Source: Hydrangea macrophylla
Taxonomy: Eukaryota > Streptophyta > Magnoliopsida > Cornales > Hydrangeaceae
Length of the DNA stretch: 64,000 bases
Direction of reading: 5' to 3'
Assembly (NCBI GenBank): GCA_033977485.1
Contig: CM066994.1
Span: 9,860,001-9,924,000 of the forward strand
Part shown: positions 3,574 to 63,916 of the stretch, piece after piece
Position numbering within the stretch: the stretch's first letter is position 1
How the letters are laid out: every line of letters starts with the position of its first letter
Translations under genes and position numbers: made by a program
The notes under the pieces: generated by a model
Told to the model about the DNA's origin: nothing
What the model saw: only the letters and a program-made list of their open reading frames with translations
Databases searched by the model: none

Positions 3574-4269
3574 AAAATCATGTCACGTCCCGGAACAACA
3601 TAAATAGAGAAAAATAAATTTCCTTTATGGGTCCATAGGGAAATGACTGGTGAATGTCACTAACTTCCACACCACGCAGTTCTAGATAACAGAAAGAACA
3701 ACCCACAGTAATATAAAGGAAATCTATTATATTACCAACATAGAGTTATTACAATAGTACAGCTACAGCGGAAATATATAAGGTTTGAAAGCAATATATG
3801 CCCAAGTACCAAATATAATAAAACAACTAAACAGAAATCAGAAACTAATAACTATCTCTAAATCTTCAGCTGGCATAAACATCAGCATTGTAGTCCTCCC
3901 TGGCATAGCCATCATCAGTGGGGCCACCCTCGGTGTATTCTTCTCCTGGATAGGAACTATCGTTGTAGACTTCGTCACCTGTAAAATAAGGTACATGATA
4001 GTCTGGACGGGGAAAGTCCAGGCAATAAAGGTCGTCATCTTACTGAGAGCTGAGTGAGTATAAACTAACAAGGTACCAGTTATCTGAAGTAAACACAAGC
4101 TTATGAAAACACGAGTTAACATCTTATTATAATAATAATAATAACTTGTTCCTTTATTCAACCTCGTAAACCAACCCTTATCATCTTGTTACTCTAAGAT
4201 CGATATTAATATATTCTGACTGTATGAACAGACTTAATCGTTTAACTCTAGGGATACACCCTTATTCTG

Positions 4270-4590
4270 TACAGCGCTTTTAAGAGCATATAACACAGCT
4301 CACCGCATGTCATGGACTCCACGTCAGTCCGTCCCCAGCTTTTAAGAACAATGTATCCTATTCACCGCATTTCAGGGACACAACGTTTCGAACAAGGCAT
4401 ATCATCTATTGCCACGACTCAGTGTCACCTACCAGACATCCCAGCTCATTGCTTTTAAGAGCATATTACATAACTCACCGCTTTTAAGAGCATATCATAG
4501 ATTATCCAGTTTATCTTAGAACTACTTGGTCCAGCTCACCGCTTTTAAGAGCATATGTACAACTCACCGCTTTTAAGAGCATATCATGAC
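4270..4590 (-). repeat. Degenerate minisatellite inside the gypsy LTR
   Basis: On the plus strand the phrase CTCACCGCTTTTAAGAGCAT recurs about six times in complete or degraded form (starts near 4274, 4337, 4450, 4480, 4539, 4567). Spacing is irregular at about 28-110 bases. Confidence 0.7.
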
Positions 4591-4898
4591 CAAACGTTCG
4601 TCCACGTACCATTCCCAGAACTTACCAAACCTACTTAAGTTACGTTCTAATGTCGCCATATGACAATTCCCAATGTGGCCTGACTACTCTGATTAAAGAA
4701 ACAGATATCGAACTCACACAAGAATAAACATGTTACCCACGTTGTCCTGTTAGCCCATTATTCTTAATCATACTTTATCTTTGTTGTCATATTATCCCTG
4801 ATTGACCCAAAATTGCTTAACGGAAGTCTGAATCAAGAATTGAACAATCGAACCTCTAATATAATAAACAGGCAAAAGAATCTATGTTCTGCCAATAC

Positions 4899-5480
4899 CA
4901 ATCGATTGGGATAAAGGGACCAAGTGAGTTAGAAACTCACCAAGGGTGCGTTTGGCTTGTGTGAGCTTTGAAAACCAAAGTTCTCTTTCTCTCTCTCTTC
5001 TTCTTCTTCTCTCTGCCCAGCTCTCTCTGTCTCTTCTTCTTCTTCTTTCTTTTCTTCTCATTCTCCTTCTTCTTCTTTCTTTCTGCCAAGAGATTGTGTG
5101 TGGGTGTGGATGTAGATATATGGATATATGTGTGTATATATATGATATAGAAACTCTCTCTCTCTTTCAAGAATTGAACAAACAGCCCCAAGTCCATAAA
5201 TGATCTCATATATATAGAGGTGTGCGAGTGCCACACGTTCAAAGCTAAAGAAAAGAAGAAAACTTATCTCAGCTTATGCCAATCGATTGGTATAGATGTC
5301 AATCGATTTGTAACAGATATTTGAAGGCAATCGATTGGAAAGAATAGCAATCGTTCGGTATGTTACCACGTCATTACTTTTAGTCGGTATAATGGCAATC
5401 GATTGGGAACATGTCAATCGATTGGTAACCAAAATGTGTCAATAGATTGGGATGAAAGACAATCTATTGGTAACCAAATC
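4899..5480. repeat. Cluster of CAATCGATTGG palindromes in the gypsy LTR
   Basis: About nine copies or near copies of CAATCGATTGG occur: one at 4899 and the rest at 5279-5480. Core ATCGAT is self-complementary. Most copies lie just upstream (minus sense) of the TATATATA box near 5212. Some copies have lost the CG (ATAGAT, ATCTAT). Confidence 0.8.
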
Positions 5481-5751
5481 TCACCAAAAGAAAAAGAAAG
5501 GTTATACAAGAATAGAAAGAAATACCAGGTCTTATTAATATACCAAAATACAGGGTATTACACATCATCCCATGGATGGCCCAAAGAGGAATAAACATCT
5601 CACTCCACGCCCAGAGGGAATTGAACTCTTCCCTTCCTGTTGTGAATTTTAATAAAAATAGATTAATACAGTCATAAATTTTGTTGGATAATTAATACAA
5701 GTTTATGGGTCCTTAATTAATTATCCTCTTATGACCTTGTCGTTACAAATG

Positions 5752-7712
5752 TGTAACACTTGTACCCGAGAAAACAGGTTGATTACCATTTAAATATGCA
5801 TTAATTAATATAATTAGTGTATAAAAATGGGTTAAGGGGAGGCTTGGACTCACCCGTGGAAGTGTTCAGTAAAAGACACAATTGAAAAAGTCTCTAGTGA
5901 GGTGGGATATGTAATGAGGTGGGACCCAGTGAAGGGCCGAGTAATAAAATTTGTATTTTATATGTTAAATGCATTTATATGATTACATGAATACTTTCTT
6001 AAGATGCTTTCAAATTATACTGTTATATGTTAGCTTCTAGTACCAATTTGGGTACCTATGTAAGGGTATAAATGAAAAATGTTTCATAATTAGTAGGGCG
6101 ATAGCAACTTCACAAAATATTTGGGACCACATGTGGGATCCATACGTGACTTAGACAAACACCCACTTAGATAATTGAGTAGTTAATGGAATGTTTGGGG
6201 GGTTTCATAATAGAACTTAGAAATTTTGGGGAGCTAAAAAGAAAATGAGGCATTTTGTTAAACCAAAAGAAAAGAAAACAGTTGGAGAAGAGAGAGAGAA
6301 GAGGCACCGAGTAAGGGAGAGAGAGAGAAGAGAGCTCCGTTGGCGTTTCCTCGCCGTGCCGTTGCCGTTGTTCATCTAATTCGCGAACCGAACCCATATT
6401 CGGACTCGTGGAGGTGAGACGGTCAATTAAATGTCTTTATTTTCTATTTTAATCGTTGGATTTTGGTACTCCAATCTAATCGGTGACACACGGTTTGCCG
6501 AAAACATGTAGGAGTTACTCTGGAACAGGAATTGAGCTAAGATTTGGTGAAATTCATCTTTTCTAACTTAATTTGGGTAGAATCTATTAAGGTGAGTTTT
6601 TAAACTAAAAATTGATTGAAATTTATGTGTTTAATTCTTCAATGAGGATTAGTGTTGATAATTCATGCTTAGAGATTATGAAAATGCTAAATTGTGAATT
6701 GCATGTCAATTATATGAAAATTGTTGTGCTTATATGTTTATATGCTTATATGATTATGTGGTAATCAATGAACACTGGAGAAATGATTCATTGTTGGGAG
6801 TAGTAAGGGAGGAGAAGAGGAAGAATCTGATAAATACGAAAGTCCAAGGAATAGAAGTGACCAAGGGACCAAGGGAAGGTCTTCGGGTCTGAATGAATCA
6901 TTGAACCAGTGGTTCGGCGAGTACAAATGTGGATTATGTGTTTAATTGTAGCATTGAACATGTTAAACATTCACTCATGTTTAAATTGCTCACTAAGCGT
7001 AATGCTTAAGAAAACCGTTTTCCATTTTCTGTTGTGGTAAATAACAACCACCGCAGGTTCGGACCACTTTTCGGAGAGGAGATGATGGCAGCATGGAAGG
7101 GGGTTGGGCAGTCTCTGGTTTTTAATATTCATAGTTTTGTCAATGTATAACGAATTTGGCAAGTGAACTTGTAGACTTGAACTTTTGTAATATGTATAAC
7201 TTGTGAACTTGTAAATTATGTACATGTACCATGTCTCATGCTGTAGCTATGGGTATGTATAACAAGGCTTGTGACGTTTATAACCGAGGTTCGGAAGTGT
7301 TTTGGTATGGATTGTCTGCCTTAGAATGATGTATAAATGTTTAAATGCAAGTGGTTGCTGCAGAATGCTCTGCTACTGCAAACCAGTCGACTGGGTCGGG
7401 CGTGCAGTCGACTGGATCACTCTTTCTAAAGTTTGAGCCCTCTGTAATTTGCATTTCCAATCGACCGAATCGAAGTTCAGTCGATCAGGCCTCTAAATAC
7501 TCAGTCGACCGGACCAGAGTTGTGCTCTCTGCAATTTGCATTTCCAGTCGACCGGACACCCGACTAGTCGACAGGATTTGCCAGTTTTGAAATATAAATG
7601 TTTTTCTTATGAACCTATTTTAGTGTTTGGTATTTCTTAAAACCACGTTAATAATTGACGTTTAGAGAGGATAATCCTTTGTTACACGGTCCTAATCGAC
7701 GCATGGCAGGAT
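5752..7712 (+). repeat. Solo gypsy LTR nested in the large element's 5' LTR
   Basis: This stretch is absent from the matching place in the 27-kb LTR copy. It begins TGTAACACTTGTACCCG and ends near GACGCATGGCA. It shares landmarks (ACTCGTGGAGGT near 6405, a TCGA palindrome cluster near its end) with the solo LTR at 61647-63916. The right edge and the target duplication are not clear. Confidence 0.6.
7383..7575 (+). repeat. Cluster of CAGTCGACTGG palindromes
   Basis: Seven or so copies of CAGTCGACTGG or variants (CAGTCGACCGG, CAATCGACCG) fall within 190 bases near the 3' end of the solo LTR. The short frame read across it is an artefact of the repeat. Confidence 0.75.
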
Positions 7713-8246
7713 TTTATATAATATTATTGGGCCATTATATTCATAGAGGTTACAATATGGTAGCATAACTCTCATAACGGCTAGCTTGGGACATTATAAA
7801 TATTGTGTTCACACAATGACATCTATGTTGTATGTAGAGAATAATCCAAAAAGAGTTCCATACATTAGTAGTCTCAGTCCCTACGATACTATTATTATAT
7901 TTTATATTTTATGATTTTGGGCAACTCGATAAAAAACTCTGATCCCTCGCCTTCTGAGGACGTGCGTATCAGTTGTGAGGTTTATGTGTTGTATCTTGGA
8001 GTCGTTAGTGACCGACAGTACCCACACGTGGCAGATGAAGCACTAGGGCTTTAGGTCGGTGCCTATGCGTGCCTCTCATCAACTCACAATTACGTTTTCT
8101 TCCTCTACTATATTGGATTTTTTATTAGTTGTTTAGTGCTTTAATATGTACTATATCGCTTCATATTGGAGTATGGTTTATGTGAATTTTATTTTATTTC
8201 ATCAATCAAATGAATTATTTCGTAAAAATCAAAATATTTTTCAACA

Positions 8247-9857
8247 ATCTAAAGACGTATATTTCGTTAGATTCAATTCGAATTATTCATATAGTACTTG
8301 TAGGACTTGTGCTTCTTTGGACATTAGATACATCCTAGTGTATTAGAATAATTCTACACTCTCAAAACTATTTTATATATATATATATATATATTTAAAC
8401 TACTGTTGTTCTTCTGGACTTGCTAGATAGTAGCGTTAGTAAGTATTCTATGTGCTCTGTGAACACTTATGGGATGATGGAAAAGGGTGTCCATTGTCCA
8501 AGCAAAGTTATTAAATAATAGAACTTAAGAAAATATTTCTATTTGACCAATAGGTGGAAACAGTTGTTTTAAAGCTGAAAAAATAGTTTTTGAGAAACTG
8601 AAGAAACGGTTGATATTTCTTACTTATTAAGAACAGTTTTTTAAAAAAAAAAAAAAAAAAACAATTTTGGGGAGGTTTAGGAAAAAAAAATGTGTGTTGA
8701 AAAAAAAGTAGTTAACTTCATTCTTTATGTATTACTTATAGACTATATAAAAACTTTAATTGTTTCAGAAACTGAAATGTGACTTGATAGGCTATAATCA
8801 CATCACTGAGTTTTGACATGTGTCGTTAAGTTCTACATTGGTATACATATTTTTATAAGTACTAGTCGATAATCCGTGCTATGCACGTGATTTAAGCTCT
8901 GTGAACATAATACTAAATAATAGTACAACTCACCAGTTAACAAATAAATTTCATAAATTTAACCATGACTTTTTCCCTCTTAATAAATTGTTCAATGAAA
9001 CCCATAAAACAAATAAAATATGTAGACTATTTGGCAAGAGCACACGGTTTGTGGAAAATATGTATCCAAACTTAAGAATTAGAAATTCAAGTAGTAGTAT
9101 TGGAAGTTGGAACTATTAATTAACAATCTTCTAAGAAGAGATTTAATTATTAATGGGTGCTGTGCTGCGTGTGACAAAGGGATTGCAAAAATCATTGTCA
9201 TTGTGGTTAAATCAACGAAGAAGGTAGAAGTGCAAGCATTTTTCAAAAAACTTTTCTCAAATAGCTTTGAGTTAAACCAAGTATACCTGCAACATGTATG
9301 TAATAGTCTCAAAACCTGTAAAACAACATCCATATCAGAACTTTAGAAAATGGCAAAAGCAATACATCTATCAATGTTCAATAAATTTTGTGTGTGTGTG
9401 TGTGTATATACATATATATATATATATGAGAATGGAAATGGAACCTCTGTGGGGGTGATCAGGGAATTCAGCAGGAAGTGAAACTGCAAAAATCAAAAAG
9501 AGACAAAAAAAACTCAATTCCAAATTTATTTAACACAATGAATAAATACTAAATAGTGGCAAGGTAAGAATATCATCAATTTGTATCAACAAATTCATCC
9601 AACATGAGAAAAGGATTCAATTCCTTCAATTTGAACCTGAGAAGTTAAATCCCCAACATTAATTATGATACACACACCAAAAAAAAAAATCAATCCTAAA
9701 TCATGTGTGCGATATTGTCTGTGTATTTATGTTATAAGGAGAAGGAGAAAGATAAAAGGTTGGAGAATAAAGAGAGTGTATCTGAGAAACTAAAGAGAAG
9801 TGATTAAATGGCTTTGGAAAGTGGGTGTCGTTTGATATTCTCTATAGTCCAAACATG
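8247..9857. other. Internal region of the large element: Helitron end and simple repeats only
   Basis: No coding region was recognised. It contains (TA)n at about 8367-8392, an A-tract at 8642-8660, (GT)n/(TA)n at 9389-9427 and a Helitron-type 3' end at 8862-8890. No TGG-type primer site follows the LTR at 8247. Confidence 0.45.
8862..8890 (-). mobile_element. Helitron-like 3' terminus
   Basis: Minus strand reads hairpin CGTGCATAGCACG, a 9-base spacer, then CTAG followed by T. A GC hairpin shortly before CTRR and insertion before T are Helitron features. The element would extend rightwards; its 5' TC end was not located. Confidence 0.5.
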
Positions 9858-9862
9858 TAAAA

Positions 9863-10099
9863 TGTTAAGTAATTACACAAGTTACCCTGCTGTAGTGTCT
9901 AATACTCTGATGTACAATCATTAGTGCACTTCTATGAAAAGCAATTCTGTTTTGAGATGTTGTAGAGTTTGCTTCTCTGTTTTTTCTGTTGTAACTGTTT
10001 TCTGTCTCTCTCTCCCTATCTCTCTCTATCTGTATAAATCATTCTCTGTATCTTTACTTTCATTTTAATGAGAATTACTAAGCATTCTTAATTTCCACA
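9863..10099 (+). repeat. Copia 5' LTR (237 bp)
   Basis: TGTTAAGTAATTACAC to TTTCCACA. It differs from the 3' LTR by only two substitutions outside the TC microsatellite (A/G near 9929; A/G near 10091). Confidence 0.95.
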
Positions 10100-10112
10100 T
10101 GGTATCAGAGCC
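10100..10112 (+). promoter_or_regulatory. Copia primer-binding site
   Basis: TGGTATCAGAGCC directly abuts the 5' LTR and matches the initiator tRNA-Met complement used by most plant copia elements. Confidence 0.9.
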
Positions 10113-10156
10113 ACAAGATCCTACCTATTGAAATTTTTTTTTCTTCCCTGCCATCA

Positions 10157-11359
10157 ATGGCGATATTACCTGTTCTTAATCTCCCTTCGAGTCTTGTTTT
10201 CTTTGTTTCCAACCTTAATTCTCTAGTTAACATCAAATTAGATCAAGAAAACTATATGGTCTGGAAATTACAGATACGTAATACTTTACGAGCAAATCAA
10301 TTACTTGATTTCGTTGAAGGATTGATTCCAAAACCAGCTGCTCAGATCTCAGACGTCTCAGGTCAGATTTGTTCGAATCCAGCTTTGATTGAGTGGATGA
10401 ATATAGATTCTCAATTGGTTAGTTGCCTCAATGCCACAATATCTCCTTCGATTCTACCTCAGATCATTGGATATGAACATGCATCTGAGATCTGGGTTTA
10501 TCTCAAAAATCGATATGTATCACATTCAAGATCTCATGTTCATGAGATTAAACTAAAGTTGCTGAATGCTTTGAAAGAAGGCTCCATGGACTCATATCTT
10601 GATTTTATCAAGAACTGTGCTGATAAATTGACTGCTGTTGGATCATCTGTAAGTAATGAGGATTTAATTTTGTATACAATCAATGGTCTATCAAATGAGT
10701 ATTCTTCTTTGAAAATCTATCTGAGAACTAATTCCAAATCACTAACTTTGAGTGATTTACATGCTTTATTGAGATCTGAAGAATCTCACATGAATAGAGA
10801 AATGAAAACTCCAAGACAGGTTACCATAGCCTTTTCTGCCATGTCTTTTAACAATAGTTCTAATTCTTTCAAAACATTCAACAATCAGTCTGTCAAACCA
10901 GGGAATCAAAACCCTAATCAATTTTTCCAAAGAGGGGGAAGACACAGGGGAGGTTTTAGAGGTAGGGGTAGACACAATAACTCAGGAAGATTTAATTCTC
11001 ACAAAGTACAGTGTCAAATCTGTGGAAAGAATAATCATACTGCATCTGAGTGTTACCATCGTTTCAATCAATCCTACCAACCCATGAATCCTTCAAATCC
11101 ACCTCAAGCTCACATTGCTTTCCCTAATTGTCAGTTCTCCAGAGATGATGGACAATCTCTTCCATTGCTACCCACTCCTAATTCTTCAAATTTTCATCCA
11201 ATTTTTCCTTCCTACCCTCTACTTCTTTTTCTCCATATGTTCCTTTTCCTTCCAATACTTCTTCAACAGTACCTCTTCAAGAACAGTGGTATATTGATCC
11301 ATCTAACAATCCTAATTCTTGTCCTGATAATTCACTTGTTCAACATCAGGCATTCTTAG
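10157..11359 (+). pseudogene. Copia gag with CCHC zinc knuckle
   Basis: Starts at an ATG 57 bases after the LTR. Residues 25-210 follow the copia capsid pattern (LDQENYMVWKLQIRNTLRANQL near the start, then a LKNRYVSHSRSHVHEIKLKL segment). A Gly/Arg-rich RNA-binding stretch (GGRHRGGFRGRGR) precedes the zinc knuckle CQICGKNNHTASEC at about residues 285-298. The frame changes near 11.22 kb: the last 45 or so residues to the stop at 11359 are out of frame, and the true continuation is in frame 1. The protein would form the virus-like particle, but the gag-pol link is broken here. Confidence 0.9.
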
Positions 11360-12181
11360 CCACTAATTCTACCAAAACTTCTGATTCCACGGAGTGGTTT
11401 TTAGATACTGGTGCTACCAATCATCTAGCCAAGAATCTTAGTTCTCCCAACATTCATCAGTCCTACAGAGGTCCTAATTCAGTCTCAGTAGGTAATGGAC
11501 AATCCATACCTATCCAAAATGCTGGAGATGGTCTTCTACCAACTCCTCAAGGCCCCTTGTCTCTTTCTCAAATATTGCATGTCCCAGACATTAGTCATAA
11601 TCTGCTCTCAGTTTATCAACTTGCCAAAGATAACAACTGTAGAATTATCTTTGATTCTGATGGTTTTGTTGTTCAAGACAAACTTACCAATCAAGTTCTT
11701 ATTCAGGGACCATCCAATCAGGGTCTTTACCCTTTTCCCTCATCTTTCAAATCTACTTCTCTTTCATCCTCCTTAACTGCACTAGTCTCAATACCAACTC
11801 AGCAATGGCATCTGAGGCTTGGTCACCCATCCTCTCAAATTTTGAATTTTATGTCTTCAAAATATGCTCTACCTTGCTCCCAATCTGTCCTTTCTCCTTG
11901 TCACCCATGTCTTAAATCCAAAAGTCACAAGCTTCCCTTCCCTAAATCTAAGTCTACATCTACCTCTCCTCTTCAACTAATCCACACTGATGTCTGGGGT
12001 CCTACTCAAACCACTTCTGTTTCTGGTTTTCGATTCTATTTTATTCTCATTGATGATTTCTCTCGGTTTACCTGGGTTCATCCTCTCCACCAAAAGTCAG
12101 ACGTCTTCAGAGTCTTTGTTCAATTTAAAGCTATGGTTGAGAATCAATTCACTACTACCATCAAGGTTATCAGATCAGAAA
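11222..12181 (+). pseudogene. Copia protease and N-terminal integrase
   Basis: The frame carries the aspartic protease site WFLDTGATNHL (about 11395-11427), then the integrase zinc-binding part (WHLRLGHPS...CHPCLKSK, 11808-11925) and the first catalytic Asp in HTDVWGP (about 11985). Near 12181 a one-base loss in the region that should read S-(D/E)-x-G-G-E-F throws the reading frame, so this piece is out of frame with the rest of integrase. Confidence 0.88.
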
Positions 12182-12954
12182 TGGTGGTGAGTTTGTCAAC
12201 ACTGTTATGACTAATTTTCTTCATACTCATGGCATTATTCATCAAAGGACTTGTCCTCATACCCCGGAACAGAATGGAGTAAGTGAAAGAAAGCACAGGC
12301 ATTTAGTTGAGACTACATTGACCTTATTAACCCACTCTTCAATGCCTTCCAAATATTGGGTTGATGCTCTTCTCACTGCTAGATTTCTAATCAATAGGTT
12401 ACCATCCCTTACTTTGCAATTCAAGTCTCCATATGAACTCTTGTTTCATTTAGCCCCTGATTACACCAATTTCAAAGTCTTTGGGTGCACTTGTTTTCCT
12501 TGGTTGTTACCATACAGACAATCTAAACTTGATTCCAAATCCAAACCCTGTGCATTTTTGGGTTACTCTTCTGATACAAAAGGATATAGGTGCCTAGATA
12601 TCCAGATAGGACATGTGTTTGTCTCAAGACATGTGCATTTTATTGAAACTGAATTTCCTTTCTCTCACCCCTCTTCTTCCTCTCCTTCACCCTCACCTTC
12701 TTCCTCTTCTACATATCAACTACTATCTGAGAATCTTGTGTTAAACAGTATGTCATCCTCTCTTTCTTCTTCTTCTTCTCTTCCATCTACCTCTATCTCT
12801 GAGTCTTCATCTAATACATCCCTGGGTCCTTTCCACAAGTTTTATTTCTCCTTACTCATCAGAAAATACTCATACTGTGGTCACCAGGTCCAAACAAGGC
12901 ATTTCCAAGCCAAGAGTCCCTTTTAGTCCATCTGCTCATGTAGCTACTGAGGAT
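12182..12954 (+). pseudogene. Copia integrase C-terminal part
   Basis: Frame 3 resumes the integrase with PEQNGVSERKHRHLVE (the catalytic Glu region), then KYWVDALLTARFLINRLPS and the FGCTCFP segment of the GKGY-like tail, and a Ser/Pro-rich linker. A further frame change lies near 12.84 kb. The solo LTR insertion at 12960 then separates it from reverse transcriptase. Confidence 0.85.
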
Positions 12955-12959
12955 ATTTC

Positions 12960-14498
12960 TGTTGGGTTTGTGCTCTCAAACCATTACTTTATGTATGAGA
13001 CATTAGCATTATAATATATGGATATCAGCTTTACATTTCATTGTGTATGTTTCTTTCATGAGATGATTGTTTTGTCCTTAAGTATCATAGTAAGCAATTC
13101 GTGTGTGTATGAGATACACACAAGTGAGATACGAATTACTATTCTTTGATACTTAGAATATGTCACAGTGGATGATGAGACTGGATACCTCATCAGGTCT
13201 ACACTGTAGCATAATTAACTACCATTGGATGGAGTGATTAATCTCAATCACTAGAGTGTAGCTCTTAGTTGATATGCTAGTGCTTATAGTGCATTGACGG
13301 ACCTGAGCTTTCCTATTGACGCTTAAGGCTGTCAACAGTCAATAGGAACTCATAACTTGTATAAGGTACGTGTTCTCAATCTTGAGATGATTATGAACAC
13401 GGACTATGGATATGGCTGCTTTGACTTACCAATCAGTGAGGTCTATAAAAGATCAACACCTGGGTATCTTGGGTATGTCATGTCCATAGGGTTGTGAACA
13501 TATATTGTCAAGATAGAATCTACCCTCTGTTTCAGAGTAAGCATTCCCTTGAGAATGTCACCAAGTTGATTACTGAGTACTGCAGTCTTGTTGATAAGAG
13601 TTATCAACATGTTTGGTAATCATGAGTAGTGAATGGGACTCAAGGAATACAAGAAGTAATCATGATTCAGGTTGACAGTAACAGTTATCCGACTACCTGA
13701 ATATGATTACGAATGCTGACGGTAGAGGGACATTAGTACACCATACAAGTCTAGTTATCGCTTCGGATATGTTCTTTTGCGTTGGAGTTCAGTTATCGTT
13801 TTATAGTGGAATAAATGTTAACTGACCAGTTAGTTAGTTTGCTGATCAAAGAGTTTGGTCATGGTAATTAACAAACTGGTCTGAGCCAACAATAAAGAGC
13901 CTAGGAGGTCCCACTCTTAGCTCCGCTAGGATGCTTGGAAAGACACTTGAGGAAGCTGTTAAGACAAGTTCGATCGATTGAAGTATGTTCGATCGATTGA
14001 AGTCAGCAGGTTCGATCGATCGAAGTATGTTCGATCGATTGAAGTCAGCAGGTTCGATCGATCGAGAATGGTTTGATCGATCGAAGGTTCGATCGATCGA
14101 AGTCACTTCGATCGATCGAAGTCTAGGTCGGTTCTGGAAATCTATAAATAGGGCAGCTGCGTTCTGGAAGTAAGTGATCGTCGTTTTTATACGCAGAAGC
14201 TACAGAAACTATCATAGTCTTCCCAAAACCTTCCTATCCTCTCTATTAGGGTTCCCACTAACCCTAGTCTTTCCGGCAGGCATCCGCAGGAGTCATAAGG
14301 GTGAAGATCATCTAGTGGAGGCTGCTGGAAGTTAAAGTTTCAGAATTGGGTTCAAGACACTAAGGTATAATTCTTGCACCCCCTTGTACGCTTCTATGGA
14401 ATTGACGAGTAGTAGATCCTGGAATACCAAAAGTTTTTATAACTTAACCTATTTCCGCTGCGCGTTTAAACTCGAACTTTAAACCACTTTTTCCTTCA
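12960..14498 (+). repeat. Solo copia LTR nested in the copia element (1,539 bp)
   Basis: Begins TGTTGGGTTTGTGC and ends TTTTTCCTTCA, with perfect ATTTC duplications at 12955-12959 and 14499-14503. A TATA box (CTATAAATA, 14142-14150) is 20 bases after a palindrome cluster. It is related along its length to the minus-strand solo LTR at 33849-35363. Confidence 0.92.
13969..14122 (+). repeat. Cluster of TTCGATCGATCGAA palindromes upstream of the LTR TATA box
   Basis: Eight copies of TCGATCGAT-type sequence in 154 bases, several joined by AAGTCAGCAGG or AAGTATG. The frames read across this block (SIDR-type repeats) are not genes. Confidence 0.85.
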
Positions 14499-14503
14499 AT
14501 TTC

Positions 14504-33848: not shown

Positions 33849-35363
33849 TGTAGGAAAAACAGGTTTAAAATTAAATCTAAACGCGCAGCGGAAAACAAAG
33901 TTCAAAACTTTTATTGGTAGCCTTGGATCTACTACTTATTAACTCCATAGATGCGCATAACAAGATGGAGAAGATTCTATACCTTAGGTCTTGAACCCAA
34001 TTCTGATTTTTGTCCTTCTCCTTGTGTGTGCAGCAGCAACCTCTAGGAAATCTTCACCCTTATGTCTCCTCGAATGCTCCCAGAGTGGCTAGGGTTGGTG
34101 GGAACCCTAATAGTGAGAATATGGAAGGTTTGGGAACTCTAAACAGGTTCTGCAGCAACTGGTACGTTAAAAACGATGATCTTTTATTTCTGGACGAAGC
34201 TGCCCTATTTATAGATTCCCAGAACCGACCTTACTTTCAATCGATCGAAGTGACTTCGATCGATCGAACTGTCGATCGATCGAACCTCGTTCGATCGATC
34301 GAACCTGTCTAGACTTCAATCGATCGAAACAACTTCGATCGATCGAACCAGTCTTGACAGCATTCTCATTTGCCTTTCCAAGCATTCTGGCGGAGCTAAG
34401 AGTGGGACCTCCTAGGTTCTTAATTACTGGCTCCGATTAATTATTATTCCATCTAGTCAGTACTCTTGACTAAGGAATCAATAATTAATCAATTATCATT
34501 AATGCCACTATAAAATGATAATTGCACTCCAGTGCATAAGAACATAATCACACATACATAAGTGATTACTAGACTTGTATAATATGATACGCATGTCCCT
34601 CTACCAGGCAGTATTCGTATCTATCATTGGGATGTATGTCTTAAGATACTGTCGACCCAATAGATAGTACATCTTATATTCCTCAAGTATCATTCACTAC
34701 TCTTGGATTACTAAACATGTCAACAATAACACTTTGTTGACAAGGCTGGCCAGCTCTCAGTAATCACTCCTAGTGACATTCTCGAGGGAATACTTACTCT
34801 TCGTTTTATTGAAGAGGGTAGAATTCCATCTTGACAATATATGTTCCCAACGTTGCATACTTGATTTACCCAAGATACCCAGGTGTTGATCTTGCAAGAC
34901 CTCACTGATTGGTAAGTCAAAGCAACCAAGCATACAACTTGCGTCCATAACTGTCTCAGGATTAAGGACATGTATCCCTATACAAGTTTTGAGTTCCTAT
35001 TGACGGTGACAGCGTTTAGGTGTCAATAGGTTTAACTCAGGTCCGTCAATGCACCGAGTGCACTAGCATATTAACCAAGAGTCAAAGACTCTTATGAATG
35101 AGATTCATCATTCTACCCCGTAGACGTTAATCATGCTACAGTGTATACCTGATAAGTTATCCAGACTTATCATCCACTGTGACTTATTTGAAATAACAAG
35201 GATTTGTGATTCATATCTCACATGTGTAATCACATACACAAATGAACCACATACAATGTTGTTTAAGGATTCCAGTCTAATATTCATCTCATGAACTAAC
35301 ATGCATAAATACATTATGATTTTCCATTGTCCAACTAACTGGTTTGAGGGCATATTCCCAACA
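33849..35363 (-). repeat. Solo copia LTR, minus orientation (1,515 bp)
   Basis: Minus strand begins TGTTGGGAATATGCCC (35363) and ends TTTTTCCTACA (33849). Perfect CCTGT duplications at 33844-33848 and 35364-35368. Related to the solo LTR at 12960-14498 with the same layout: palindrome cluster then TATA box (CTATAAATA, minus, about 34205-34214). Confidence 0.9.
34237..34350. repeat. Cluster of TCGATCGATCGA palindromes upstream of the LTR TATA box
   Basis: Six copies in 114 bases, several as inverted pairs around GTGACTTCGATCG or CTGTCTAGAC spacers. The cluster ends about 23 bases from the TATA box. Confidence 0.85.
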
Positions 35364-38536: not shown

Positions 38537-44731
<6,195 letters not shown>

Positions 44732-52410: not shown

Positions 52411-52412
52411 TA
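52357..52412. repeat. (GT)n-(GA)n microsatellite at the eIF1 promoter
   Basis: About 36 bases of GT then about 20 of GA; on the gene strand this is a CT/CA tract close to the likely start site. Confidence 0.9.
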
Positions 52413-55066: not shown

Positions 55067-55074
55067 GACAAGGA

Positions 55075-56075
55075 TCACCTTTTGGGTAATTTCCTAGACA
55101 GATACTAACACGAAGAGATTGTTTGAAAAAGCGACAAATCAAATTTGTGGTTCACAAGTGAATTAGTTTTATAAATTAATAATGTTCGGTGTATATATTT
55201 TTATACACATTTTTTGACACATTGTTTTAAATGCGTGTACTTTGTGTTGTGTAAGTGGTGCACAGAAAAAGTATAAATAGTGTAAAATTTTCAAACAGCA
55301 TAAGATACACGCATTAAAAGCACAATGTGTCAAAAAGTGTGTACACCTAACATTATTATTTACAAATTTAAATGTTTGATGAATACTAGATTCTTTTACA
55401 AGAGATTGTCTCTCAAAAGTCAAAATTAATTTTTGTCAAATCAATATAACCTTAATTTTTACTAAAATCAGATAAAAGTGAGAATTGAATTGAACTGAAC
55501 TTATACCAATTTTAGACTTTTCAAACAAGCCCAAATAAACAAAAAATACTACAAACAGCAAATTATTTAGAGTTATTTTCTCTGTTTTTTTTTTGGAACA
55601 AATTCTAGTGTTAACCGAAACAAGGTCTTAGGTGTACTATAGGTGTGGCAGGTGCCTATGTGGTTGGTGTTAGGTTGGTTGGTCGGTCACACACGGCATT
55701 ACAAACGACAAACATATAAGTCAACACAAACGACAATAAAGAAAGAGGGTGTTTTTGTGTCTTTTTGTGCTACGTGTTAATTTCATTTGGCGAGTAGACA
55801 TTTCTGTATTCGCACGTGACTGGAAAATTATGCTAGAATGGAAACAGACAATTGGGGTACTGAAAGGACATCGTCTTCTCAGCTTTCTCCATCTGGGCCA
55901 GAGACTCGAGTCAGATTTAGCTAGCTACTTTGAGATTGGTCTTATTAGCCCAGCTTACAAACTTGGGCTAGAGTTACCACTCACAACAAATTGCAAGATC
56001 AAAACATAGAACTGCAATTTATTGAAATGCCAAAGTTATCTTACAAAATTTGAAATTGAGAAACCTCAAATGTGG
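55075..56075. other. Intergenic stretch, nothing recognised
   Basis: No convincing reading frame. A short inverted phrase (GTGTACACCTAACATTATT versus AATGTTCGGTGTATA, 55180-55355) may be a degraded fold-back element. Confidence 0.35.
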
Positions 56076-56083
56076 TTCCCAAC

Positions 56084-56294
56084 TAGAGGTATTTGGTTTT
56101 GGTCGATTTTTTTTTAGTAGTTTTAAAATTGATTTTTCGGTTTTTATAGGTCGGTTTTTGTGATTTTGATCGGTTGTCAGTAGGTTAGACTTTTGTTCTT
56201 AAAAAAAAAAAAAAAAAAAAAAACCGACCAATAGGTGTTTGGTCGGTTTAGTTTCGGTCGATTTTTAGTTTTTGGCTTTTTTTGAACACTCCTA
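56084..56294. mobile_element. Small hAT MITE
   Basis: Starts TAGAGGTATTTGG and ends with the complement of TAGGAGTGTTCAA. Eight-base duplications TTCCCAAC / TTCCTAAC (7 of 8). Interior is rich in TCGGTCGATTTTT and poly-A. Confidence 0.72.
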
Positions 56295-56429
56295 TTCCTA
56301 ACACATGTGGTATTGGATCCACCTTATTTTCATTAAAGGACGTTAAAGGGGGTCCCACTATTATTGAAGATGGTCCATCTACCAAAATGTGTTGTGAACC
56401 ACTCTTAAAATATTAAATTTGAGAAACAT

Positions 56430-56600
56430 AGCATTACTCTTTCCAACAATGTTAGGGGCACAAAATAAGTTTAAAAACACTTACAAACATACTCTATCTC
56501 TCTCATGGGTGACATTGCACAAACACACTCTATCTCTCTCCTGGGTGACACTTTACCAAGAGAAAGATAGAGTGTGTTTTGTACCCACTCTACTCTTTAA
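56430..56600. mobile_element. Fold-back MITE, possible relative of the GAGTAA family
   Basis: GGGGCACAAAATAAG and ACTCTATCTCTCTC on the left pair with AAGATAGAGTGTG and TTTTGTACCCAC on the right. A 30-base phrase (CACTCTATCTCTCTC..GGGTGACA) is duplicated inside. Confidence 0.4.
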
Positions 56601-57499
56601 AAATTGGTATATTATGTCTGAGGTGAATAATCTCAAATCGGTTAAAATAGTATTTATTGTAAAAGACTAATGTTCATAAGTTCATTCAGGACCCAAGTTA
56701 GTGGATTTTTCAAATATATCCTGGTCTTGTTATCACGTTCGATTGAAATTCTTCCAATCATGGTAGAGATATATAGCAAGGAAAATAAATAAAATTGTAA
56801 AAATTAAATATTCTAAATAAAATCTTAAAATCAAAATAAATTATTTTACATTGTCATTTCCAATTCTTTTATTTTGATTTCTACATAAGTTCAAAAAAAC
56901 ATTTTAAATATTATTTCAGCATACAGAAAAAATACAAAATAGTTGTTCCTTCTTTTTACTTTCTCTATCCGCTACCGAATATTAGGCTTGGCAAATGGAA
57001 GGGTTGTGGCAGATTACTTACAAGTTGGGTTGTAAACGGGTTGGGTCTGTGTATAACTCACATGGGTTTGGGCCCAAAATGGGTCGGGTCACACGGGTGG
57101 ACAAATATGCAAATTTCTCTTAATTTTGAATTTATTGACATATGGATACCACTTTAGTGTTTTTTCTAGCACTTTTCGTCATGTTCTAAGATAGTACTAT
57201 TGGTGCACTTGCTGTCCACCCTAAAGTAAATAGAAAAAGTATTCCACGTCTTTTTCAATAGTAGGGATACCTAAAATTAATATATTAAGCATATGTTTGG
57301 GAATACATAAAATGGGATCAATGTCAATCTCACTTATTTTTTAAAATTAGTATCTTATTGGTTTTGAAAGGGAAAAAAAAAAAGAACATATTTTTTTAAA
57401 AGTGATATTACATCGAGCACGTATTCTATACAATTAAAGGATATTAACCAGTTGATTTTTGAAAGACAAATAGTTCTAAAATTTAAGAGATTGTATGTG

Positions 57500-57741
57500 A
57501 GACTCTGTCTCAGTCGATCGGGCTGCGCGCCAGTCGACTGTGTGGATAGGGAATTGCGTCCCACATCGCCTGGGTGTGGTGGTGGTAATGTGCTTATAAG
57601 TGTGAGCCGTACCTTCCATGGCATGACATGTTTTGGGTTGTCAGGCCCAGGAACAAAGCCGTGAGTGGGCTGGGCCGTGTGTGCGAGCCCAGTGCTGCAA
57701 AGCGGACAATATCGTGCTGTGTGTGGGCCGGGCTGTGACAC
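57500..57741 (+). repeat. TRIM- or LTR-like fragment
   Basis: Holds GTCCCACATCGCCTGGGTG, GTGCTTATAAGTGTGAG and AAGCGGACAATATCGTGCT, phrases typical of short plant LTRs, and ends GGGCTGTGACA. Two TCGA palindromes lie at 57513-57541. The left edge is undefined. Confidence 0.35.
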
Positions 57742-57998
57742 TGTAGGAACCTATTGTGTGGTAATTCTAAATAGTTTCGTGTTTGTGTCCTGTTTTTTAG
57801 TTACACTGAAATTTACTTGAGACTTCAAAGTATTTCAAGAACTTTTTCTTTGTCCAACCACGAGAAATAGTGATTTCCATAAATAAATATAGTTGTAAGA
57901 TTTGGTTTGAACCTCATCTTTTCTTCAACATTCTCAAACAGACCCTGAAGCAAGAAAGCGAAACCAATTGTGAAGCCAATGAAGTTACCAAACTTTGT

Positions 57999-58159
57999 AT
58001 CCAAAAAAATGCTTCCTAAACACATGTGGCAGTGGTGGGTCTACCTTCAATAATGATGGTTACACTTCAACATCCTACAATCAAAATCAAGCTGCCCCAC
58101 TACCACACATGTTTTGAAAGCATTTTGCAAAACAAAATTCGGGAAGCAAAGCTTTACTC
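57999..58159. mobile_element. Mutator-type MITE, GAGTAA/GCTTCCC family
   Basis: Right end is the complement of GAGTAAAGCTTTGCTTCCC; left end AAAAAATGCTTCCTAAAC is degraded. Shares ACTTCAACATCCTACAATC with the 47356 copy. Confidence 0.6.
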
Positions 58160-58495
58160 AATTTAGTTCCCAAATAGGTTACTAGTTGTACCACATGCTG
58201 TGACAGTGATCGGTGGCGCCAAAGTCACTGCATAATTGGTGGTGCCACAACCACGTCATAAAGGAACATACGTGGGTAAAGTTCCTTAGACGTGGTTTGT
58301 TAGTTCCCTCTCACAACAGTGAAATCCAGAATTAAAAGAATAATGTTTTAAAATTTCTTTTTCTTAATTAGGGTACTATTATTGTAGGAGGAACCCAAAG
58401 AATCACACCTAAGGAACTTTACCCAAGTGTGTTCCTGTCATAAATTAGTTTCCAACTGCTTTAGTAGTTGTACCACATGTTGTGACAGTGCCACT
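58160..58495. repeat. Direct repeat enclosing an inverted repeat
   Basis: TAGTTGTACCACATGCTGTG occurs at about 58185 and again (TGTTGTG variant) at about 58464. Between them GGGTAAAGTTCCTTAG (58276) pairs with CTAAGGAACTTTACCC (about 58410). Probably a small transposon inside a duplication. Confidence 0.45.
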
Positions 58496-58693
58496 CCATA
58501 TGGTACAACTATAAAAAAGAAAAAAAGACACAAAAAAAAAAAAAAAGCATTTGGTAACCAAGCCGCATAGAATTACATTACTCAAGTCACACCACTATAT
58601 CAGTTCAGTCCACACAGTACCTTTGGACCTTCACTTTCACAGCAAATTCACACAACTTGTAATCAGAAAACAGATCAAAGAAGAACTTGTTTC

Positions 58694-58850
58694 AATGAGG
58701 GATCCCTCACAGTACATTTTGGACTTCTATTATATTCGTCGGATCCAGTTCTCATTAAAAGAATTGAAGTAATTTCACAGACTAAAAATTAGATCCAACG
58801 ACTGATAATAGAAGTCCTCATTTTAACAAAATTGAGGGATCGCTCATAGG
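58694..58850. mobile_element. Fold-back MITE
   Basis: TGAGGGATCCCTCACAG and TGGACTTCTATTAT on the left pair with ATAATAGAAGTCC and TTGAGGGATCGCTCATAGG on the right. No target duplication found. Confidence 0.45.
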
Positions 58851-59116
58851 AAGAAGGGTTCTGTATATATATATATATTTATTTATTTAAATATACACAC
58901 ACGTATATGTATGTATATGTGTATTTTTGTATATGCAGATTGCGAATGTCGGACTAGAATTTTTTGCTAGATTTGGTTTCCATGATTGATGGTTGTATGA
59001 GTATTGTATCTGTTTGATTATGTACAAGTTCCTAATTATCCTACAGGGGATATAATATTGGAATTCGACTTGTTGATAAGTTTCTAGCAAAATCCAATGT
59101 CTCCAGATGTGTTGAT

Positions 59117-59472
59117 TGTTGCGAATATGACCTGCAACACACAATGCAAACACACACAGAAAGCGAGAAACAAACAAACCACGACACAAGATATACCCTG
59201 TGGTTCGGCCAAATTGTCTACGTCCACAGCCTCTCACACCAGCTCACTATACTCAACGAACAGAAAGGATTACAAGTTTTCTCTCTCAAAAAACAGCACT
59301 CAACACACTGCGGCTGCACATAGAAGGGATAATATATCCCACTAGGGTTACACTAAAAATTACTATAATACCCTTGGCCCGAAATAAATTTCGACGCAAT
59401 TCGGGCCGTTAACTCGGGGGGGGGGGGCTGAACCCCCGGTATCAGAGTGGATCAGACTTCATAAACCCAACA
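59117..59472 (-). repeat. Copia 3' LTR (356 bp)
   Basis: Minus strand TGTTGGGTTTATGAAG (59472) to CATATTCGCAACA (59117). Contains a G-run complement at 59417-59427. The partner LTR is outside the window. Confidence 0.8.
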
Positions 59473-59562
59473 ATCTCCCACTTGAAGACTGATCTGAGAG
59501 AGAAAGAAACAGCTGTCACCTCCATAGAAACAAATAGTGCTGGTGTGAAAAATCATTGTCTT

Positions 59563-61312
59563 CTAGTCTTGAAGACAAATAGAAGCTGAACATTTCTTGA
59601 ACTTCTCCACAGTGACCACCTTGGCAAACATATCTGCAGGATTATCGTTTGTATGAACTTTCTCCAAAGTGAACTGTCCATCCTCCAAAAGTGAGCGAAT
59701 GAAATGGTACTTGATGTCGATGTGCTTGGTTCTCGAGTGAAAAACTGAATTCTTTGCAAGATGAATTGCACTTTGACTATCACTGAACAACTGAGAAACC
59801 CCCTCTTGTTCCTTACCAACTTCTTTCATGAAATTCCTCAACCATACCATTTCTTTGCAAGCCTCAGTGGCTGCCACATACTTTGCCTCTATCGTGGAGA
59901 TGGTTACATATTTCTGTAGTCTGAACCCAACTGACTACTGCACTGCCCAAAGTAAACACATACCCTGTAGTGCTCTTCCTGCTGTCAATATCCCCTGCCA
60001 AATCTGAATCCACATAGCCCTGAATACGAATATCTGAATCATCATAACATAATGCCACATCTTTAGTGCCTCTAAGGTACCTCATAATCCACTTAACACC
60101 TTCCCAATGCTCCGTGCCTGGATCTGCCATAAATCTGCTCACTACTCCCACTGCATGAGCAATGTCTGGCCTTGTACAGACTATAGCATACATCAAGCTG
60201 CCTACTGCTGATGCGTAAGGTACTCTAGCCATGTACTTACGGTCTTCATCTGTGACTGCTACTTGATCTTTGGAAAGTCTGAAGTGACTTGCCAAAGGAG
60301 TGCTAATTACTGGTTTAGCATTTTCTATATTAAACTTTTTCAGAACGTTGTCAATATATTCTGCTTGTGATAGTTCCAACTTCTTGTTTACCTTGTCCTT
60401 GCTGATTCTCATCCCAAGAATTTTCTTTGCATTTCCCAAATCCTTCATAGCAAATTCCTTGGACAACTGTGGCTCGAGATTTGAAATCTCTTCCATGCTT
60501 GATCCTGCAACAAGCATATCATCTACATATAAAAGCAATATGAGATACGATGTAGCAAGCTTCTTAAAATAACAGCAATGGTCTGAATGACATCTTATAA
60601 AACCAGCTTTTGCCATAAAAGTGTCAAACTTTCTATACCACTGCCTTGGGGCCTGTTTCAACCCATATAGACTTTTCTTAAGCTTACATACCAGATTCTC
60701 TTTCCCTTTCACTACATAACCTTGTGGTTGATGCATATAAATGTCCTCCTCCAAATCACCATGGAGGAAGGCGGTTTTGACATCCAATTGTTCCAAGTGC
60801 AAGTTCTAAGCTGCTACAATACTTAGCACAGATCTAATAGTAGAAATTTTAACAACAGGAGAAAAAATTTCTGTGTAGTCAATACCTGGTTTTTGCTGAA
60901 ATCCTTTTACTACCAACCTTGCCTTGTACCGATTACTCCCATCAGATTCTTCCTTTATTCTATAAACCCATTTGTTGTGCAAAGCTGACTTCCCCTTTGG
61001 TAACTGGACAAGATCCCACGTCTGGTTTGATGAAAGAGAATACATCTCATCATCCATGGCATGCTCCCACTTCTCCCTGGTCTTAACCTGTAAAACTTCC
61101 TCAAAACATTCTGGTTCACCACAATTAGTTAATAACAAAAATTTCAGTGAAGGTGAATAGCGCATTACAGGCTTACTAACTTTAGTAGACTTCCTCGGAG
61201 GGAGAGTTTGTGGTTCTTCTTGCGGTGTAGGTTGTATGTTCACATCTTGGGTCTTCATAACATTCTTATCTGAAATCTCCTCAAACTCTATAAAATCTGA
61301 ATTTTCAGTATT
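59563..61312 (-). pseudogene. Copia reverse transcriptase and RNase H, decayed
   Basis: Shows W.V..P.GK.ALHNKWVYR, RYKARLVVKGF, a stop (TAG, about 60803-60805) just before [26 protein letters not shown], the active site LLYVDDMLVAG (about 60520-60550), and VGSLMYA. The RNase H part has VDSDLAGD, then shifts frame near 59925; the other frame carries AATEACKEMVWL, SAIHLAKNSVFHSRTKHIDI and ends at 59563. Compared with the copia at 9863-16335 this is a different family. Confidence 0.9.
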
Positions 61313-61641
61313 CTACTTTTGACGACCAAGTCTATCTTTGTACAAAACAGACTCATTGAACACTACATCCATACTCCTCACTGTTTTCTGTTTTTCAAAG
61401 TCCCACAGTCTATACCCATAACTATCAGTACCATAGCCAATGAAGTAACACTTCCTAGACTTAGGATCATGCTTACCCCTGTTCTCAGGTTCAATGTGTA
61501 CATAAGCAGTGCAACCAAAAATGTGAAGATGAGAGAGATTTACCTCTTTTCCAGTCCAAGACTCTTCTAGCAAACCACAAATCAAAGCAACTGAAGGTCC
61601 CCTGTTGATCAAATACACGGCAGTGTTTACTGCATTAGCCC
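61313..61641 (-). pseudogene. Copia integrase C-terminal fragment
   Basis: Continues the integrase after the solo LTR: FWANAV-type start, YLINRGPSV, FGCTAYVHIE, KCYFIGYGTDSYGYRLWD, ending at a TAG at 61313-61315 that cuts the link to reverse transcriptase. Confidence 0.85.
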
Positions 61642-61646
61642 AGAAT

Positions 61647-63916
61647 TGTCACACCCGTTCCAGAAATTTATGATTTTTGAAAATGCATCATTTGAGATTT
61701 TGAAATTATTAATGTTATTAATAATTTGAGTCGGGGTTGACTGTGAGTCAACGGTAAGGTGTCAGTGAGGACACGGGAACATGGCAGTTCACATTGCATG
61801 AGCATGAGTAAATGGCATTTATATGATTTAAATGTTATTTGACTTTATCTGGTATTCATGTGAATAGTAATTATACTTGTGTAGTATAATTCTGGTATTT
61901 GGATACTTAGTATATCATTTTGAGAACTGTGGTGAGAACGTGAGTGATACGTTAATTAAAAAGGTAGGTTGTGTAGAGATTTCACAGAATATAATTTTCG
62001 GACGTTACTTTTGGACCCAAACGAAACCTAGTCGAAAACTTTTGGAATTTATAATTTTCACTCGTAAAGGCATAAAGTGAACGTGTGCAAAGTTTCGAGA
62101 GCTAATTAGAAGTTTTGAGAAACTCGCGGGGAGGTAAACGTAATTCCCAGAAAGTTTGTCTATATATAGAAGTGGATGAGATTCATTCTCATCCAAACTT
62201 CCAAAATATCTAGAGAGAGGAGAGAGTAGGGAGATTGAGCCAACGGGCTTTGCGACGCCGATCGACGACCGTTTGTCCGTCAGATTTTCTCCAGATTTCA
62301 TATTTGAACTCGTGGAGGTAAGATCTACGTTTTGATAGTAATTAGGCCGCGTTTGGCAAATTTTTTCAAAATATCTAATTTCTAGGAATTGGGAAAAATC
62401 AGGTAAAACTTGTAGGAATCGCGTATAATTTGGAATCCGACGAATAATTAGGCCCCTAGACGATCCTTCAAAGTTTAAAGAGATTCGCACGAGGTATGAA
62501 TTCTAGATCTATGAAATATATGGATTTTCATGTTTTAAACATCAACTTTGATATTCTTGGATCCGGGCGAAATTCATGTATTAATTAGGCCCGTTAATTA
62601 TGCACGTGAAATTATATGAAAAGCACGTATAACTGTTTATGTGAGCATGTTATGTGTCTACTTGGGTCAAAGGGGAGTTTGGTGCAAATTCATCCGGGGT
62701 AAGCTCCTCGAACCTTGAGGATTATGATTATGATTGAAATGGAATTGGAATTGGAATTGTGGTTGTGTCTGGATTGGAGGTGGGCCCAACCAGGACACGG
62801 TACCTGGTATGGAGGAAGGCCCAACCAGTGTATGAGATACGTGGGAGAGGTGGGCCTCCTACGGCATCGACCGGATGAATGCGTACCACTCACCCTAGAG
62901 ACTATTTTTCCTATGTGTTTTAGATGCTTAAACCATGGACTGTCATATAAGCATACATTTAGAATTGTGCACTCAGCATATAGCTGAGCAGTGGAGATGT
63001 ACTCCATTGCAGGTAAGAAGAAAGACAAGAAGAAACGTGATGAGTGAGGCCGAGGAACGCCGGGGAACCACATGTTGTATATGTTTTTGTTTTAATCCTA
63101 AAACTTGTGTAAGGATTGGGAAACTGTAAAATGTTGTAATAAAATCATGGATTAGTTTGTAGTACTGTAATCTTGTAATTGAACGTCTGTAGTTATATTT
63201 AATAAGTTGTTATTGGTGTTGGTTGTGATTGTTTGTGGTTATTGAGAAGCCTGGGTTAGTATTTTCAACACAGGACTGCCCAGCAGGGGAACAGTCGACT
63301 GGACCCTGTATCAGTCGACTGGATCCCGTGTGTTTGAGACACTGAAAGTGAATAGTAAGAGGAGCAGTCAACTGGACCCTTTATCAGTCGACTGAACACT
63401 GTTGGTTTTTGGCTACTGCTTCTATTAATGATAAAACTAGTCGACTGGGTCCCCAGATCAGTCGACTGGACCCCCTTTTGAAAATGTTAATTTTTGGTTC
63501 TGCTTAACACAGTCGACTGGGGGAGTGAGCATTCGACTGAACCACTGTAGATTTTAGCTACTGATCCAAATAGTAACTAGTGCAGTCGACTGGGTTCCTT
63601 GATCAGTCGACTAGACCCTTGTTGAGGAATTTTAGATTTTGGTTTCTGCTAGGCACAGTCGACTGGACCCTAGGCACAGTCGACTGAACCTTTGTTTTTA
63701 GAACTGATTCTTTTGAATATGTTTCCACTTGGCCAAAACTTTTTATAACTCTGATTTCAATGGAATTTCAACTCAAAGGGTAATGTTTCCTAAAGCTTTA
63801 AATTACTCAGGGTCGTTTTAAAGTTCTTTCCGCTGCGTATCGTTAGATGATGATTTCATAGCCTTGGTGGCGTGCCACGTGTCCTATTTCCACGCGTAGT
63901 GGGATGGGTCGTGACA
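61647..63916 (+). repeat. Solo gypsy LTR in copia integrase (2,270 bp)
   Basis: TGTCACACCCGTTCC to GGTCGTGACA with perfect AGAAT duplications at 61642-61646 and 63917-63921. TATATATAG at about 62162 and ACTCGTGGAGGTAAG at 62310 suggest promoter and leader. Related to the solo LTR at 5752-7712. Confidence 0.92.
63288..63680 (+). repeat. Cluster of CAGTCGACTGG palindromes in the solo gypsy LTR
   Basis: Twelve copies in about 390 bases, mostly as CAGTCGACTGGACCC pairs 17-30 bases apart. One copy has TCAA instead of TCGA, one starts CATTCGA. Confidence 0.88.

Follow-up and report, generated by a model that had tools for sequence, protein, structure and literature searches.

TCGA-centred palindrome arrays in Ty3/Gypsy and Copia long terminal repeats of Hydrangea macrophylla: candidate sites for a dimeric factor

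Why do retrotransposons of two superfamilies carry clusters of the same short palindrome in their long terminal repeats (LTRs)? The question is raised by a 64,000-nucleotide stretch of the Hydrangea macrophylla genome (C13:9,860,001-9,924,000, hereafter the window), for which a preliminary description reported TCGA-centred palindrome clusters in five LTRs. All five are present, at 4898-5424, 7383-7575, 13971-14122, 34238-34347 and 63292-63686. The analysis confirmed that they are real and that the phenomenon is far larger in scale than first stated. We read all site types as one consensus, CRRTCGAYYG, found in Ty3/Gypsy elements and in a classic, non-Sirevirus Copia family. We see about an even chance that LTR transcription is controlled through these clusters by a homodimeric factor, probably of the host, for which they would be arrays of binding sites. 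The five LTRs (gyA to gyC, Gypsy; copA and copB, Copia) and their arrays are listed below; U3 and U5 denote the unique 3' and 5' parts of an LTR, and ORF an open reading frame.

3581..5562, minus strand: gyA, 5' LTR of a Ty3/Gypsy element, with TG...CA ends; the element extends to the left.
519-1532, minus strand: gag ORF of gyA (Pfam PF03732).
5279..5470, minus strand: U3 array of gyA, with four perfect CAATCGATTG and decayed copies.
4898..4909, minus strand: single CCAATCGATTGG of gyA, directly after a splice-donor-like GGTGAG (4936-4941, minus).
5752..7708, plus strand: gyB, LTR-like insertion inside another LTR (5638-5755 and 7713-8246); Gypsy by LTR anatomy only.
7383..7575, plus strand: array of gyB, with two perfect CAGTCGACTG and three asymmetric sites (CAATCGACCG and two CAGTCGACCG).
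12960..14498, plus strand: copA, solo Copia LTR, target duplication ATTTC.
13969..14122, plus strand: U3 array of copA, with seven CRRTCGAYYG sites, four of them symmetric.
33849..35363, minus strand: copB, solo Copia LTR, target duplication CCTGT, 73% identical to copA.
34236..34350, minus strand: U3 array of copB, with six CRRTCGAYYG sites, four of them symmetric.
61647..63916, plus strand: gyC, solo LTR, target duplication AGAAT; Gypsy by LTR anatomy, no coding part.
63288..63690, plus strand: array of gyC, with eight perfect CAGTCGACTG and decayed copies, downstream of the TATA box (about 62160) and of AATAAA (63138).

The words had been correctly assigned to their LTRs: CAATCGATTG to that at 3581, CAGTCGACTG to those at 7.4 and 63 kb, and TTCGATCGATCGAA to both Copia LTRs. 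Together the five LTRs hold 31 CRRTCGAYYG sites, namely 23 exact palindromes and 8 asymmetric sites (three of five in the 7.4-kb LTR, three of seven and two of six in the Copia LTRs). When each LTR was compared with 200 dinucleotide shuffles, four clusters stood clearly above every shuffle and the 7.4-kb one did so narrowly. In the LTR at 3581 there are 5 perfect 10-bp TCGA palindromes, where the shuffles average 0.1 and never exceed 1. The LTRs at 12960, 33849 and 61647 have 4, 4 and 8, against maxima of 2, 1 and 1. Region 5638-8300 has 3, one of which is the unrelated AATTCGAATT at 8275, against a mean of 0.12 and a maximum of 2. Over the whole window, 30 such palindromes compare with a mean of 2.35 and a maximum of 6 in 60 shuffles.

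The sites extend throughout the genome. Counts covered 2,221,998,752 bases in 19 contigs, with the same word reversed as background control. CAATCGATTGG has 158,849 matches (78,612 + 80,237) against 590 for its control (285 + 305), and CAGTCGACTGG has 120,118 (59,419 + 60,699) against 147 (79 + 68). The degenerate word CARTCGAYTGG is found 297,629 times (147,337 + 150,292), its control 564 + 581 times. CRATCGATYG, which is identical on both strands and was counted accordingly, has 453,119 matches against 3,168. Thus, the genome counts lie about 140- to 820-fold above the reversed-word controls.

The excess is also visible in 19 random stretches of 10 kb picked before looking. They are spread over 18 of the 19 contigs, always in the opening 60 Mb, and constitute a sample, not a census. 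There, CGATCGATCG (26 copies) and CAATCGATTG (18 copies) are the top 10-bp palindromes after (AT)n runs; CAGTCGACTG occurs four times, tied with other words and always in the same stretch. CRRTCGAYYG is present in 9 of the 19 stretches and the control pattern once each in 2. Among the 16 self-complementary four-base cores, TCGA shows the largest excess of 10-bp palindromes, 7.1 times the naive expectation in a set that includes the window, followed by TATA (4.7 times), ATAT (3.8 times) and the remaining 13 (at most 2.2 times). A second palindromic word, TGAGAAATTTCTCA, which has no CpG, occurs in six copies in a single random 10-kb stretch.

Where do the arrays sit? TATA boxes, splice donors and leaders were assigned from consensus words, not transcripts. 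As first described, most copies in the 3581-5562 LTR lie upstream of the TATA box, the nearest site being about 61 bp before TATATATA (within 5201-5217, minus). The short distances given for the Copia LTRs also hold: the array ends about 20 bp before CTATAAATA at 14142 in copA, and the gap is about 22 bp in copB, whose TATA box falls within 34202-34214 (minus). The other Gypsy arrays had been placed far downstream of the TATA box. This stands for gyC, whose array lies 1.13 kb past the TATA box and also past AATAAA, therefore in the U5/leader part; gyB only appears to share this arrangement, its array lying toward the 3' end of the LTR.

Stretches of the same genome outside the window (L009-L033) reveal a feature absent from the preliminary description. 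Several sampled families have an array in U3 before the TATA box and a second one in an intron or the 5' untranslated region. Arrays before the TATA box are found in gyA, L021, copA, copB, L011, L015 and L030, and second arrays in L032, L021, L011, L015 and L030. L032 is a relative of gyA, about 78-84% identical in the LTR; each of its LTRs has, besides a U3 array, a full second array past the donor, at the place of the single site of gyA. The plan of gyA recurs in L021, an LTR from the random sampling, where about 60 bp separate the end of the U3 array from TATATATA (4719), GGTGAG follows near 5038 and a second array occupies 5174-5342. Between gyA and L021, blastn gave no match over the arrays of L021; the LTR ends alone align, with 71-72% identity over 240 bp. 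In L011, which belongs to the Copia family of copA and copB, the second array is in the 5' untranslated region past the primer site. L015 and L030, whose LTRs may be Ogre-like, have one array before TATATATA and a second about 0.4 kb after it.

Within arrays, site spacings peak at 16, 19-21, 25 and 42-45 bp. Helical phasing was rejected as an explanation: the peaks do not fall at multiples of a helical turn, and duplication has passed on some of the spacing. The Copia and Ogre-like LTRs (L011:130-446 minus, L030:771-893 and L015:5606-5701) share a 14-bp palindrome, often with an AAGT flank, and spacings of 16, 19 and 42-44 bp. copA and L030 are 78% identical over 123 bp, largely the sites themselves, which is suggestive of Copia/Ogre-like exchange. 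From these sequences, array segments may have been exchanged between superfamilies.

Do the two arms of the site change together? The preliminary description had taken the difference between Gypsy words for a paired change, A/T to G/C, that keeps the palindrome. This is borne out genome-wide at the A/G position. Subtraction of the two pure forms (297,629 - 158,849 - 120,118) leaves 18,662 mixed sites, CAATCGACTGG or CAGTCGATTGG (6.3%), 7.8-fold fewer than the approximately 146,000 that independent arms would give. A local set of 960 TCGA sites was drawn from the window and L009-L032, the window and L032 being included on account of the motif. Matched arms are in excess in this set, with 48 CAA/CAA observed against 5.4 expected, 42 CGA/CGA against 15 and 15 CAG/CAG against 0.8. 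Cross-combinations of these three arms number 15 (CAA-CGA), 1 and 1. Coupling is looser at the position next to A/G: among the first 100 matches listed for CRATCGATYG, a non-random set from one contig end, 28 are mixed, where about 49 would be expected if the arms were independent. The looser CAA-CGA coupling is as the loss of the outer CpG predicts, since one transition turns CGATCGATCG into CAATCGATCG or CGATCGATTG; the pure forms relevant to deamination are CGATCGATCG, TGATCGATCA and CAATCGATCA. Independent change of the arms is thus rejected at the A/G position by the genome counts, and is partly true at the neighbouring position, where CpG decay can explain the mixed forms.

The sites are better kept than the DNA between them. 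In eight pairs of separate insertions from three families, aligned over U3 or second arrays, sites are 90-97% identical and spacers 68-86%. The copA and copB sites are identical at 58 of 60 positions, whereas the LTRs as wholes are 73% identical; compared with the LTR outside the sites, the difference has a Fisher p of 6e-4. When the L032 element's own two LTRs are taken as a ninth pair, the values are near-equal (0.95 for sites, 0.96 for spacers), as expected from neutral decay after insertion. Information across the sites of five families peaks in the 10-bp core and falls over about five flanking bases.

These comparisons bear on a neutral origin, in which slippage or unequal exchange amplified a palindrome unit that transposition then spread. 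Units are gained and lost, copA having two more than copB and the two LTRs of L032 differing by one 20-bp unit, and copy number by itself follows from transposition. We nevertheless find this account improbable, in view of spacers that diverge more than sites both within and between arrays, a consensus common to Copia and Gypsy, and recurrent placement by the TATA box and after the splice donor.

The CpGs of the sites make their conservation more telling. CpG transitions account for 30 of the 67 one-mismatch neighbours of perfect sites (by type, 9 of 20, 2 of 10 and 19 of 37); with CpGs in the sites and this decay, unconstrained sites should decay faster than spacers. The decay suggests that the sites are methylated, but does not point to methylation as their purpose. 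The preliminary description had proposed a target of CG methylation; in a fuller form, the arrays would be CpG islands maintained as places where this methylation is set or read. A central CpG is present in every perfect site, TTCGATCGATCGAA has three, and the repeated motifs of Sireviruses are described as forming predicted CpG islands (PMC2829016). The fit is poor, however, because the CAATCGATTG and CAGTCGACTG types have conserved arms despite one CpG per 10-bp site; in addition, the ACGT, CCGG, GCGC and CGCG cores show little palindrome excess (1.1-2.2 times). We give this explanation very little chance.

A further possibility raised at the outset was RNA hairpins. Single sites are weak in this respect: they are loopless, their hairpins reach just -0.8 to -2.2 kcal/mol, and none of the array folds contains a self-paired site. 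Whole arrays fold strongly. Eight arrays fold 3.9 to 9.9 standard deviations below dinucleotide shuffles (z -3.9 to -9.9), with half or more of the site bases paired with another site. The arrays could therefore act as RNA, inter-site pairing giving double-stranded RNA for dicing into small RNAs, through which the host would recognize the element, or helping in packaging or dimerisation. Small RNAs are reported to map to palindrome-rich LTR regions of maize Sireviruses (PMC5311732, PMC10760457). Yet inter-site pairing is the automatic outcome of repeating a palindrome, and any matched arms would satisfy it. We rate DNA binding above an RNA role because a narrow primary-sequence consensus, which pairing does not require, recurs in Gypsy and Copia. 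A role as RNA is, on balance, rather unlikely.

Could the element itself encode a protein that reads the arrays? In this scenario, an element-encoded DNA-binding protein would block silencing, as VANC does in Arabidopsis VANDAL transposons. The anatomy resembles that of VANC targets, with dense short motifs in upstream regions and introns and tandem repeat formation (PMC5735166), and some array-holding stretches (L030, L015 and L025) have plant mobile domain ORFs. These ORFs, of 155-699 amino acids, lie at L030:1718-3814 (minus), L030:6436-7698, L025:8208-9998 and L015:6453-6917 (minus). Reverse transcriptase, of the Tat type in Ogre elements, was not found in the L015 and L030 stretches that hold them; a plant mobile domain is reported as an extra ORF in 57% of Ogre elements (PMC6317226). 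The idea that every array-bearing element encodes such a protein was rejected, the ORFs being in some stretches only and none in L033, the Copia coding part. The Copia family has the site all the same: its gag-pol ORF stops only about 15 bp short of the 3' LTR, and the 6 kb of L033 contain no other ORF reaching 110 amino acids. Moreover, VANC21 motifs are arrayed in one orientation whereas the present sites are symmetric, and the protein of a single lineage would need to serve other lineages. We judge an element-encoded reader quite improbable.

A dimer-binding array, the remaining proposal of the preliminary description, fits best because of the dyad symmetry, the consensus shared by Copia and Gypsy, the placement by promoters and the higher conservation of sites than of spacers. 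The half-site would be about C-R-R-T-C and the full site CRRTCGAYYG. In both superfamilies, LTRs have arrays in U3 beside the core promoter, about 20-70 bp ahead of the TATA box, and often others 0.4-0.8 kb further on, within the leader or first intron. Many bound dimers could raise LTR transcription or shield the LTR from silencing. The factor is most likely a host protein, since no common accessory gene was found in the families that share the site.

Several points weigh against this proposal. Eight of the 31 window sites are asymmetric. In gyC, and apparently in gyB, the sole array is far downstream of the promoter, toward the 3' end of the LTR. The similarity of their LTR ends makes gyA and L021 distant relatives, so their shared plan is not independent. 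Coupling at the level of families leaves the number of independent matched changes uncounted, and these could be few. Alignment columns were called site if at least one row fits CRRTCGAYYG, which biases the comparison toward sites; some flank bases are also kept within families, and the identity of sites within an array comes partly from tandem duplication. Finally, the strong RNA folding of the arrays adds to these points.

A broader version, which we hold to be doubtful, is that one conserved plant homodimeric factor with the half-site CRRTC activates or de-silences many unrelated LTR lineages across angiosperms. Copia and several Gypsy lineages would have acquired, by convergence or exchange, arrays of its site flanking their start sites, and arms would change in matched pairs as families track versions of the factor. 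If one factor reads the sites, much of the retrotransposon load in a big plant genome would be under the control of a single shared regulator. It would also explain the recurrence of such palindromic boxes in LTRs of tobacco, grape and this plant.

Four of the five array LTRs look like solo LTRs; the duplications AGAAT, ATTTC and CCTGT were read directly for three. The LTR hosting gyB has an empty counterpart at about 27288, and no clear target duplication was seen around gyB. copA is inserted between the gag/pre-integrase ORFs and the reverse transcriptase ORF of another Copia element, and gyC has as neighbours the reverse transcriptase ORFs of a minus-strand Copia element. Thus, copA (12960-14498) and gyC (61647-63916) appear nested in pol regions of other Copia elements, with 5-bp target duplications. 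ORFs of L032 have RVT_1, RNase H (RT_RNaseH), protease and Tf2-1-like SH3 domains; for gyA and L032, no match to a chromodomain, part of the chromovirus criterion together with RVT_1, RNase H and integrase, was found in the five ORFs scanned. Elsewhere in the window, at 39483-40253 (minus), lies a coding stretch for Thi4 (thiamine thiazole synthase), for which the best plant relatives listed align over 73% of the query at about 97% identity. Over 73% of the same query, 95% identity is shared with a Thi4 protein that carries the label Citrobacter portucalensis (P0022), probably reflecting plant contamination of the bacterial record.

The closest known system is the repeated motif (RM) boxes of Sireviruses. 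Bousios et al. 2010 (PMC2829016) describe these as palindromic, present in at least eight copies per element and concentrated for the most part in the LTR's upper half. Where a TATA box was found they sit shortly before it, and some elements have extra boxes outside the LTR (PMC2829016). Many palindromes likewise cluster shortly before the TATA box in gyA, copA, copB and L021; gyC, and apparently gyB, depart from this position. The survey, whose set is Ty1/copia, states that RM boxes are Sirevirus-specific, absent from classic Copia and built on a CGG-CCG core except in Tnd-1 (PMC2829016). Two of its 13 motifs fit CRRTCGAYYG, ACAATCGATTGT of Tnd-1 (tobacco) and CGGTCGACCG of Vitis, and may in our reading be joined with the present sites under this consensus; CGGTCGACCG is rare here, with two copies in the local set. 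The present sites differ in their TCGA core with CAA, CGA or CAG arms and without the CGG-CCG core signature, in their classic Copia and Gypsy carriers, and in the second arrays in an intron or 5' untranslated region.

The Copia carriers are non-Sirevirus by the linker criterion of the same survey, as judged from their sequence. In Sireviruses the 3' LTR is preceded by a long linker, 0.52-3.96 kb in the listed elements, that contains several polypurine tracts of the form AGGGGGAG (PMC2829016). In the family of copA, copB and L011, the gag-pol ORF runs almost to the 3' LTR, as noted above, with one polypurine tract, AAGTGGGAG. The junction of 5' LTR and primer site in L011, CA-ATTGG-TATCAAAGC, agrees at 15 of 16 bases with that of Sireviruses, CA-ATTGG-TATCAGAGC. 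The Copia insertion formed by L011:606-2100 and L033 has two LTRs identical over the 904 bp available, and is therefore recent. Searches of open-licence literature by topic and by motif words including AATCGATT turned up no account of arrays like these in Gypsy or classic Copia.

Other systems share parts of this anatomy. The maize work of Bousios et al. (2016, Genome Res) is cited for clustered palindromes in the LTR regulatory region, with high sequence variability and RNA secondary structure (PMC5311732, PMC10760457). The maize palindrome, which is reported to outnumber all other motifs in the structured regions of Helitrons (PMC10760457), has a spacer loop in its motif CACCGGACNNNGTCCGGTG, whereas the present sites have no spacer. 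VANDAL transposons have, like these LTRs, dense arrays of short motifs in non-coding parts including introns, with tandem repeat formation; they differ in being DNA transposons with a self-encoded binder of a same-orientation, non-palindromic 9-mer, and the VANC21 motif is described as rare outside its own family (PMC5735166). Repeat arrays in cis-regulatory regions of transposons are listed more generally (PMC10760457). Thus, repeat arrays and a single palindrome shared across transposon orders both have precedents, and the present arrays extend to Ty3/Gypsy and classic Copia elements what had been considered specific to Sireviruses.

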